NCBI GenBank assembly: GCA_017554335.1
Contig: JAFZIO010000055.1
Location: forward strand, 80,829 to 144,828
Direction of reading: 5' to 3'
Source: Bacteroidales bacterium
GTDB taxonomy: Bacteria > Bacteroidota > Bacteroidia > Bacteroidales > UBA932
DNA: 64,000 nucleotides
Shown here one piece after another: positions 10,170 through 64,000 of the stretch. The stretch's first letter is position 1; every line of letters begins with the position of its first letter. The notes under the pieces are model-generated. The model was not told where the DNA came from and did no database searches. It worked only from the letters and a program-made list of their open reading frames with translations. A program made the position numbers and the translations under genes.

Positions 10170-10316
10170 CCGCTGCTGGGCCGGACCAGGGGGTACTGCT
10201 GCGGCAACCCGTGGCCGCCCGTGGCCACGTGAACGGGAGGGGCCCATCGGAGATGGGAGGGATGAGCGAAGCGAAGGTTCTGCCGCAGCAGTACCCCCTG
10301 GCCCGGCCCGCAGCGG
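10170..10316. repeat. Palindromic element, copy 1 (between convergent genes)
   Basis: Arms 10170-10206 and 10281-10316 are inverted repeats of about 36 bp with one mismatch and one bulge. The 74-nt core carries GGGAGGGGCCC, a small CCCATC/GATGGG hairpin, GGGAGGG and GATGAGCGAAGCGAAGG. The element fills almost the whole gap between the stop codons of apbE and the lytic transglycosylase, so it can also act as a two-way terminator. Confidence 0.85.
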
Positions 10317-11200: not shown

Positions 11201-11214
11201 CAGTTGCTATTCCA

Positions 11215-11329
11215 GATGAAGGTGGTCTCTTTCGCAATCATAAGCACCCTCGCTTGTAGAGGGAGGGGCCCACGAAGTGGGAGGGCGAGGACCGGAGGTC
11301 CGAGGATGGAGAAAGAGACCACCTTCATC
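11215..11329. repeat. Palindromic element, copy 2
   Basis: GATGAAGGTGGTCTCTTTC (11215-11233) is repeated perfectly in inverse orientation at 11311-11329. The 77-nt core shares GGGAGGGGCCC and GGGAGGG with copies 1 and 3, contains a CCCAC/GTGGG hairpin, and ends with CGAGGACCGGAGGTCCGAGG instead of the GAGCGAAGCGAAG tail. It begins 14 bp from the transglycosylase start and ends 5 bp from the mnmA stop. Confidence 0.85.
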
Positions 11330-11334
11330 GTATA

Positions 11335-62308: not shown

Positions 62309-62710
62309 ATGGCAGAAGAAGTTAAAACACGCTATTCCGACGAGGAACTCGCCGAGTTCAAGGCTATCATCGATGAGATGCTCGAAAAGGCTCGTGCAGA
62401 GTATGAGACTCTCCGCCACGTTATCATGCATAACGGTTCCAATGACATTGAGGACACGTCACCTTCTTTCAAGACCGTGGAGGATGACGGTGCTAACCAG
62501 CTTTCCAAGGAGGAGGCCAGCCAGCTCGCTCAGCGCCAGTACAAGTTCATCCAGAATCTGGAGGCTGCTTTGGTGCGCATAGAGAACAAGACTTACGGTA
62601 TCTGCCGTGAGACCGGCAAGCTTATCCCCAAGGAGCGCCTGCGTCTGGTTCCTCATGCCACCCTGACCGTGGAAGCCAAGGAGAAACTCGCTAAGTCCGG
62701 AAGGAAATGA
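62309..62710 (+). CDS. TraR/DksA family protein without the zinc cysteines
   Basis: The 133-residue protein has an N-terminal coiled coil (YSDEELAEFKAIIDEMLEKA) and the DksA-type end YGICRETGKLIPKERLRLVP. Only one cysteine of the usual four remains; HATLTVEAKEK is where the second pair would be. This cysteine-poor form is usual in Bacteroidota. It should enter the secondary channel of RNA polymerase and change initiation, perhaps with ppGpp. It lies between ileS and lspA (4-nt overlap with lspA). Confidence 0.88.
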   Translation: MAEEVKTRYSDEELAEFKAIIDEMLEKARAEYETLRHVIMHNGSNDIEDTSPSFKTVEDDGANQLSKEEASQLAQRQYKFIQNLEAALVRIENKTYGICRETGKLIPKERLRLVPHATLTVEAKEKLAKSGRK

Positions 62711-63279
62711 AAGTTTCCAGAGGAGCGAGGCTGATTGTTCTCGGGGTCCTTCTGGTGGTTATTGATCAGGTTATCAAGTACTTGGTCAAGACCAACATGG
62801 AGCTCGGCCAGCAGATTTATGTCCTGGGCGACTGGTTCCGTATCTGCTTCGTAGAGAACGAGGGAATGGCCTTCGGAATGAAGTTCGGAGGCGCAGTGGG
62901 CAAGTTCCTGCTGTCGTTGTTCCGCATCGTGCTTTGCGGGGCCCTGATTTGGTGGATCACGTCGCTGAACCGCAATGGAAAGGCGCCCGTGGGTGTTCTC
63001 GTGGGCCTTACCCTGATTACCGCAGGGGCTTTCGGCAACATTATCGACTGCCTTTTCTACGGCATGATCTGGGACTATGCTCCGTTCATGTTCGGCAAGG
63101 TTGTAGATATGTTCTATTTCCCGCTTATCCACAATTCCGCCGGGGAGGTTATTTTCTTCAGCCCCGTGTTCAACTTTGCGGATTCGTGTGTTACGGTGGG
63201 TGCTTTCTACCTGATTCTTTTCCAGTGGAAGTTCTTCGCTTCCGATGACAAGCCGAAGGATGACAAGAAGGCTGCTTAG
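62707..63279 (+). CDS. lspA: Lipoprotein signal peptidase (signal peptidase II)
   Basis: The 190-residue protein has four membrane helices. VVIDQVIKYLVKTNM is the first conserved block, VENEGMAFGM the second, AGAFGNIIDCLFYG and FNFADSCVTVGAFYL hold the catalytic aspartates. It cuts the diacylglyceryl-modified prolipoprotein before the cysteine, so it serves every lipoprotein in this window. The last 20 nt overlap the start of the histidine phosphatase gene. The C-terminus is short and basic. Confidence 0.95.
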   Translation: MKVSRGARLIVLGVLLVVIDQVIKYLVKTNMELGQQIYVLGDWFRICFVENEGMAFGMKFGGAVGKFLLSLFRIVLCGALIWWITSLNRNGKAPVGVLVGLTLITAGAFGNIIDCLFYGMIWDYAPFMFGKVVDMFYFPLIHNSAGEVIFFSPVFNFADSCVTVGAFYLILFQWKFFASDDKPKDDKKAA

Positions 63280-64000
63280 CGTCCTGGCGGCAGCTCTGGT
63301 TCTCTGCTCCTGCGGCAGCGACGCGGGAGAGGGAATATCCGGCGAAACCGTGTCCACCCTCGGACGCGTTAGAGGGAGGGGCCCGCAGGATGCGACCGGG
63401 CGTGTGGAGCTTGCTCCTAAACGGGCGGAAACAGACTGTGGGAGGGATGAGCGAAGCGAAGTTTCGCCGGGTATTCCCTCTCCCGCAGAATCAGCTGCCG
63501 CAGAGTGGTGCCTCGGTACGTCGCGACTGTATCCGGAGACGGTGCCGGCGGTACCGAAGGCGCCACGGGGATACGTCCCGGTGTATCTAAGCCACTACGG
63601 CCGTCACGGATCCCGGTACCTGGTAGATCCCGGACAGTATAAGAATGTGTATGAGGTACTGTCTGCAGCGGCTGCGGAAGGCAAGCTGACTGAAGAAGGC
63701 GAGCGTGTGTGGCAGTTTTATTCGTCCGTTTACCCGTCGTTTGACAAACACGAAGGCGAGCTTACGCCGCTCGGCGCCGCTCAGCATCGTGCAATAGCTG
63801 CGCGGATGGTGCAGAATTATCCCCGTCTTTTCCGCAGCGACAGCCGGATAGAAGCCAACTCCACCAATCTGGAGCGCACTATGCTCTCCATGCAGTACTT
63901 CACCCAGGGCCTGCTGTCTCTCCGCCCCAAGCTCCGGATTCACGCAGATGCGTCACGGAGTTACATGGGCCGCATCAACCAGCACACGCTGGAGAATCCC
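63260..64000 (+). CDS. Histidine phosphatase lipoprotein, 3' end outside the window
   Basis: The frame is open from ATG 63260 to the window edge, giving 247 residues. MTRRLLSVLAAALVLCSC is a lipoprotein signal peptide. YLSHYGRHGSRYLVDPG near residue 114 holds the RHGxR catalytic motif of the histidine acid phosphatase/MINPP group, and ANSTNLERTMLSMQYF is the expected downstream segment. It likely hydrolyses inositol or sugar phosphates in the periplasm. Residues of about 21 to 83 are encoded by a palindromic element kept in frame, between the lipobox and the catalytic domain. The 20-nt overlap with lspA suggests co-transcription. Confidence 0.85.
   Translation, partial: MTRRLLSVLAAALVLCSCGSDAGEGISGETVSTLGRVRGRGPQDATGRVELAPKRAETDCGRDERSEVSPGIPSPAESAAAEWCLGTSRLYPETVPAVPKAPRGYVPVYLSHYGRHGSRYLVDPGQYKNVYEVLSAAAAEGKLTEEGERVWQFYSSVYPSFDKHEGELTPLGAAQHRAIAARMVQNYPRLFRSDSRIEANSTNLERTMLSMQYFTQGLLSLRPKLRIHADASRSYMGRINQHTLENP
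63310..63502. repeat. Palindromic element, copy 3, in frame within the histidine phosphatase gene
   Basis: Arms 63323-63348 and 63460-63485 are inverted repeats of 26 bp with one mismatch, and outer arms CTGCGGCAGC (63310-63319) and GCTGCCGCAG (63493-63502) pair as well. The 111-nt core carries GGGAGGGGCCC, GTGGGAGGG and GATGAGCGAAGCGAAG, as in copy 1. The frame stays open through all of it. Confidence 0.85.

Follow-up and report, generated by a model that had tools for sequence, protein, structure and literature searches.

The window analysed here, a 64-kb stretch of DNA from the genome G000, ends within a gene for a MINPP-like histidine phosphatase lipoprotein, which lies downstream of lspA and contains a palindromic element in its reading frame. 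The features of this locus, and the other copies of the element in the window, are as follows:

62707..63279, + strand: lspA, signal peptidase II, the upstream neighbour (PF01252, E 2.5e-34)
63245..64000, + strand: histidine phosphatase (branch 2) lipoprotein, MINPP-like, continuing past the contig end (PF00328)
63310..63503, + strand: complete palindromic element, in frame (open frame, inverted repeat, model match at 63321-63487)
63310..63349, + strand: 5' arm, similar to the element-free orthologous site in G129 (local alignment)
63350..63367, + strand: P2 hairpin GTGTCC-ACCCTC-GGACGC (aligned copies and pair counts)
63357..63376, + strand: pseudoknot, loop CCCTC (63357-63361) with GAGGG (63372-63376)
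63382..63442, + strand: P3 helix CCC/GGG around the extra stretch of the long variant
63444..63461, + strand: conserved GGGATGAG, short P4 hairpin and GCGAAG (aligned copies)
63461..63503, + strand: 3' arm, the inverted partner of the 5' arm
10182..10304, + strand: second family copy (covariance model, 107.1 bits)
11212..11331, + strand: third, diverged family copy (covariance model, 46.9 bits)

Positions 63310-63503 form a palindrome, though an imperfect one, around a structured core. As an inverted repeat, the arms align over 39 nt on 43 nt (86% identity; E 1.2e-7 for the 64-kb window). A covariance model was derived from an alignment of 103 copies that left out the one in this phosphatase gene because of its length; this model matched positions 63321-63487 with a score of 104.5 bits (E 3.7e-26). 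The arms and the model match establish that the palindromic element of the original prediction is real. It had been described as a third copy, which is correct, since the model located two others in the window, at 10182-10304 and 11212-11331, the former apparently sitting past the stop of the gene on its left. As claimed, no stop interrupts the frame that runs from 63245 across the two arms and the core to the end of the window. About 50 nt of extra sequence lie inside the third helix (P3) of the window copy and of a few others; it was seen in L002, L113 and, at the fmt site, in G127. In L010, L117, L124, L125 and L177, a long variant has about 40 additional nt separating P2 from the pseudoknot strand (CCCCGAAGGGCAGATGTCCCC...).

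Two contigs of G000 with overlapping ends, C51 and C50, share the phosphatase gene between them. Over residues 206-251, the protein encoded in the window is 100% identical to C50, on which the 3' part of the gene forms an open frame of 292 residues. An orthologue contained whole in one contig (L176) matched solved chains named multiple inositol polyphosphate phosphatase 1. This match starts at query residue 90, and the catalytic domain therefore begins right behind the element, which places the insert between the lipobox cysteine and the catalytic domain of a histidine phosphatase lipoprotein, in agreement with the original prediction. Judging from the sequence, the insert peptide is probably retained in the mature phosphatase.

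With lspA as a syntenic anchor, a match was obtained in 137 of 151 genomes of the genus, and the downstream gene was read at the best 30 of these 137 loci. The phosphatase was found downstream of lspA in nine of the 30 (G000, G043, G127, G063, G023, G120, G064, G121 and G129). A tenth case, with the element present, comes from the named set (L176). The element follows the cysteine in the window (G000) and in G043, G127, G063, G023 and G120. The copy in this gene is in the sense orientation in G063 and antisense in G023 and G120, with similar arms, and G043 and G127 contain an antisense copy together with what appears by eye to be the remnant of a sense copy. In G064, the element lies ahead of the hydrophobic part of the signal peptide, and the orthologues from G129 and G121 are element-free. 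The distance from the cysteine to a conserved tryptophan is 65 residues in the window, versus 15 and 17 residues from the two cysteines of G129; in G121 it is 30 residues from the nearest cysteine. The alignment of homologues proposed as a check thus gave the expected result, with the block lacking in G129 and G121 and present after the cysteine in the element carriers. The prediction that about 60 residues had been added holds for the palindrome itself, which spans about 64 codons, but not for the net insert, which amounts to about 48-50 residues relative to the closest element-free orthologue, G129, and is shorter than the palindrome since the 5' side is similar to the host's own sequence. 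A deletion may have left the G129 site as a scar.

Two side observations concern this locus. The lspA matches were in two pieces in G054, G118, G119, G130, G134, G137 and G163, a hint of insertions or frame breaks. A 57-nt hairpin with perfect arms of 20 nt lies in frame in the signal-peptide region of the phosphatase in L193 and L192 (G023 and G120), and the two species have its loop in opposite orientations.

Distribution of the family and fold of its core

The covariance model detected the family in 53 of 61 genomes of the genus, G000 included, with at least 43 copies in G000 (all copy counts are lower bounds). In an order-wide sample, three of 149 genomes were positive, G000 among them, i.e., two of 148 others: one from another genus of the same family (5 copies) and one from another family (3 copies). 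Many of the genomes used are incomplete metagenome bins. A DNA search of G000 with the window copy yielded 36 matches, mostly limited to the two conserved core blocks, and a DNA search of 41 genomes gave a match in 20, all belonging to one genus. At least 109 stretches were recovered by a pattern scan of named genomes; the 80 matches listed were from metagenome bins assigned to Bacteroidales, Bacteroidia or Bacteroidaceae and from Candidatus Cacconaster scatequi, and many of the bins among these 80 bear ruminant or horse names.

For the structural analysis, copies of more than 150 nt, including that of the window, were excluded before alignment, and 103 of 119 non-redundant copies were retained after the manual removal of 16, some of them long variants and the rest taken out with no formal criterion. 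The structure scored consists of an outer stem (P1), three hairpins (P2, P3 and P4) and a pseudoknot between the P2 loop and the strand after P2. Across the 103 copies, 81.4% of the cells of the whole structure are paired, versus 64.2% after shuffling and 36-47% in the slid controls, and two-sided changes were observed in all five helices. Pseudoknot cells are paired in 99.6% of cases, with two-sided changes at two of the five pairs (GC 64, UA 20 and AU 17 at one pair; UA 72 and CG 29 at the next), and P1 is variable at all 23 pairs, yet 70.9% of its cells are paired. Pairing often fails elsewhere, at one P2 pair in 40 copies and at the inner P3 pairs in 23-50 copies, and the number of further pair types was not exceptional, being reached by 48 of 500 shuffles. 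Since kinship inflates pair counts, our case rests on two observations: the slide control, and the pseudoknot pairs switching together. The core of about 75-85 nt folds, with a covarying pseudoknot, and this covariation suggests that a folded intermediate is under selection. Pairwise identity is 80% in the core (columns 64-108), versus 34% in the 5' arm (columns 17-39).

When nine element-bearing loci were compared with the Rfam covariance models, the element was overlapped by just two microRNA models, far under their cut-offs. A hammerhead-like reading of the GATGAG-hairpin-GCGAAG segment was rejected because the residues that the hammerhead motif has before GATGA and at the 15.1/16.1 pair are absent.

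A second core (GTTACTCAGCCGCAGC...GGACGTAGCC), unrelated in sequence to the first, was also observed between private complementary arms. Seven copies were present in the fetched loci (L273 1663, - strand; L259 1660, + strand; L253, L258, L279, L312 and L123), and two further matches of this pattern are due to chance. In two relatives, the second core occupies the same site at which L007 of G000 has the first core.

Copies within other protein-coding genes

An ORF spanning the element, under the length limits applied, was present for 74 of 141 element instances in the fetched loci and absent for 67. Thirty-four of the 40 spanning ORFs tested matched an NCBIfam family (E 1e-8 or better). A single profile match extended across the insert in 11 of them: PrmC (L003), AtpG, DnaX (twice), Fmt, YgiQ (twice), RsmE, PolA, a MocR-like regulator and RecG. 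In five more, the profile matched in two or more stretches, with coordinates known for the best stretch alone: UvrA, FolC (twice), TilS and PrmC (L128). These 16 ORFs represent 12 different genes, and their copies are 5 sense and 11 antisense. A Dpp5-like peptidase (L122), also with two stretches, was left out because its insert is near the N terminus; the remaining profile matches were on one side of the insert or involved neighbouring domains. The set of spanning ORFs is biased because it was chosen for being open; over the 103 aligned copies, stops are absent from 102 of the 309 frames in sense and from 196 of the 309 in antisense. In G000, 15 of the 25 copies examined were genic on profile or orthologue evidence, and all of these are in frame.

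The positions of several inserts could be compared with solved chains. AroB (L010 504-1892) contains two elements, one in each orientation, ahead of HGEA; they contribute about 118 extra residues between chain residues 287 and 289 of 3okf, the downstream part of the match scoring just 6.5 bits. The PrmC insert falls between residues 30 and 32 of 4dzr, with a weak upstream part, that of AtpG after residue 58 of 4xd7, and that of PolA between two aligned domains. By our reading of these alignments, all four inserts are at linker or loop positions.

No broken genes were found among the 67 copies lacking a spanning ORF, with the ORFs of the fetched loci as comparators. One homologous ORF was matched on both sides in six of these 67. 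On inspection, two of the six (L157 and L089) proved to be shadow frames and three (L004, L172 and L149) intergenic; the sixth, L106, is an in-frame copy in ksgA that had been counted as lacking a spanning ORF because it fell outside the length limit. Many essential enzymes of these uncultured gut bacteria appear to carry a stretch of selfish DNA within the protein.

Movement of the element and origin of its arms

We propose, with a probability of roughly 0.77, that the insert belongs to a genus-level family of small non-autonomous mobile elements that is moved in trans, lies in frame in the phosphatase and is translated as extra residues. The conserved core would fold as single-stranded RNA or DNA (P2, P3, P4 and the pseudoknot) and be closed by a long outer stem, the arms of which differ at each locus and stay complementary. 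Copies would arise via the folded single strand, with the enzymes presumably supplied in trans, and genic copies would persist where they preserve the frame and occupy a loop or linker. That frames are open in either orientation suggests that the element may be transcribed and translated, yielding 45-60 extra residues; in the phosphatase, the insert would have lengthened the tether from the lipid anchor to the MINPP-like domain. No transposition event was seen in the genomes compared.

The arms of the same copy pair at 71%, versus 49% for arms taken from different copies, and the own partner outperformed 95% of the others in just 55 of the 103 copies. The core was found flipped between similar arms (L191 versus L193, and L021 versus L249), and at orthologous sites it is sometimes of another subtype or flipped, with the arms similar. 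Template switching or recombination between the arms would be the simplest way in which the core could flip with the arms staying matched.

A different origin of the arms, at or after insertion, by inverted copying of the host flank with the folded core as a primer, is possible, if doubtful. The 5' arm of the window copy aligns with the G129 site, where no element is present (score 36; p 0.0005, the minimum for 2000 shuffles), and the 3' arm is its inverse; L176, in the same gene, gave p 0.016, the outer 5' arm of L012 matches its element-free site, partly as plain flank, and the second, unrelated core also has private complementary arms. However, the G129 site, which may be a scar, also resembles the inverse of the window arm (score 27, p 0.001), because it is partly self-complementary. 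The comparison of arm origins comprised 11 pairs, as many subjects among the 21 aligned pairs had elements of their own or decayed ones and were unused; neither arm of L007, L026 or L088 was present in the element-free site, and just the 3' side matched, partly as flank, for L172 and one of two L027 comparisons. Furthermore, L005 and L006 have common arms at two loci, and arms can therefore travel with the element. As a general rule for all arms, inverted copying of host DNA was rejected, since it fits the window and perhaps L012, and not L007, L026 and L088. As speculation, and quite unlikely as a whole, a core might spread without ends of its own, its 3' end folding back and copying host DNA into private arms, with at least two cores doing so, flipping and being kept as coding sequence.

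We consider it unlikely that the family is of the REP/REPIN type and moved by a RAYT (Y1, HUH) transposase. A Y1_Tnp match (E 0.001 or better) was found in 45 of 53 element-bearing genomes versus one of eight element-free genomes (Fisher p 1e-4), and the element could act as folded single-stranded DNA. However, this co-occurrence may be explained by common ancestry and bin completeness; eight of the 53 element-bearing genomes gave no Y1_Tnp match, and G013, 96% complete and with 11 elements, has none. The element (model R1) was near one of 24 Y1 loci (L319) and does not generally flank RAYT genes, and at several of the 20 Y1 loci viewed the Y1 gene is flanked by other hairpins (by eye). The GTAG and CGTC tags are inconsistent, being found in 31 and 27 of 103 copies, respectively, and in four of 103 apiece when the count is confined to the 12 outermost nt of the aligned segment, the true ends of the element being uncertain. 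In the Y1 loci L310, L315, L318, L320 and L326, a RAYT-like gene has its own distinct hairpins on both sides (by eye). A reverse transcriptase was rejected as the mobiliser: RVT_1 gave no match in six of the seven richest genomes (at least 38 elements; incomplete genomes), namely G000, G004, G023, G043, G063 and G064 (38-46 elements each), and was present in G011 (39).

Removal of the element before the protein is made, by self-excision of an intron-like RNA or by ribosomal skipping of the hairpin as in Magnusiomyces, is improbable. The covarying pseudoknotted fold of the core and the insertions inside conserved enzymes are in keeping with it, but the genic copies are open in both orientations, and an antisense transcript contains the complement of the core. 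An excised element would require no open frame, and many frames contain stops, yet the genic copies use open ones, in a set chosen for open frames. A MITE of a DD(E/D) insertion sequence is highly improbable: the element is small, repeated, palindromic and scattered within and between genes, but it lacks conserved terminal inverted repeats, the mark of a MITE, the outer arms being its least conserved part (34% identity versus 80% in the core), and visual comparison of five sites with distant relatives showed no recognisable target duplication. That there was no insertion and that the block is an ordinary fast-evolving linker is hardly credible, since, although linker length varies without the element (15-17 residues in G129, 30 in G121), the repeat family refutes it, with at least 43 occurrences of the core in G000 and with the element itself as the difference between orthologues.

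Relation to known palindromic repeats

Among the known systems closest to the proposed family of small elements are the Rickettsia palindromic elements (RPEs), to which the original prediction had likened the insert; the likeness was upheld by in-frame copies in conserved enzymes, genome-wide and in both orientations, and by analogy the element can be said to behave like them. RPEs are described as repeats of about 105-150 bp, found between genes and in frame in conserved genes (PMC2229807, PMC10969869). Like them, the present element is a short palindrome, with at least 43 copies in G000, in frame in conserved genes. Unlike RPEs, it occurs in a different phylum and has a conserved pseudoknotted core between long private arms; these arms stay matched, whereas RPE repeats are said to lose identity with time (PMC6649704). 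In-frame small repeats in conserved genes are, according to the portions of the literature consulted, best known from Rickettsia, and less so for ERIC, NEMIS and REP (PMC2229807, PMC10969869, PMC3733652).

REPs have been reported inside genes, including repair genes, and REPs of the CGTC type are reported from Bacteroidetes (PMC3733652). The element resembles REP/REPIN systems with RAYT in being a short dispersed palindrome that co-occurs with Y1 genes, and differs from them in lying near one of 24 Y1 genes, in having no consistent tag and in conserving the core instead of the outer stem. ERIC, NEMIS, YPAL and other MITEs are small repeats, some of which are described as fused in frame to genes; they are marked by terminal inverted repeats (PMC2229807), unlike our element, the ends of which are variable. 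In the mitochondria of Nematomorpha, matched inverted repeats are kept in coding sequence and template switching has been proposed, the available part of that account mentioning no common core or dispersal family (PMC6649704). In Magnusiomyces mitochondria, palindromic bypassed elements are inserted in protein genes (PMC6649704); these are untranslated, whereas the element described here has open frames in both orientations.

Our literature search found no account of such elements in Bacteroidales. A gut lineage of this order has tens of copies per genome, in genes for replication, repair, translation and ATP synthase, and the many related genomes make the birth, flipping and fate of inserts, and any seeding of new protein segments by them, directly testable. 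The covarying pseudoknot provides a handle on finding the mobiliser. What looks new is the lineage, the extent of insertion into housekeeping genes, a core with a covarying pseudoknot, and arms that are private to each copy and yet matched.
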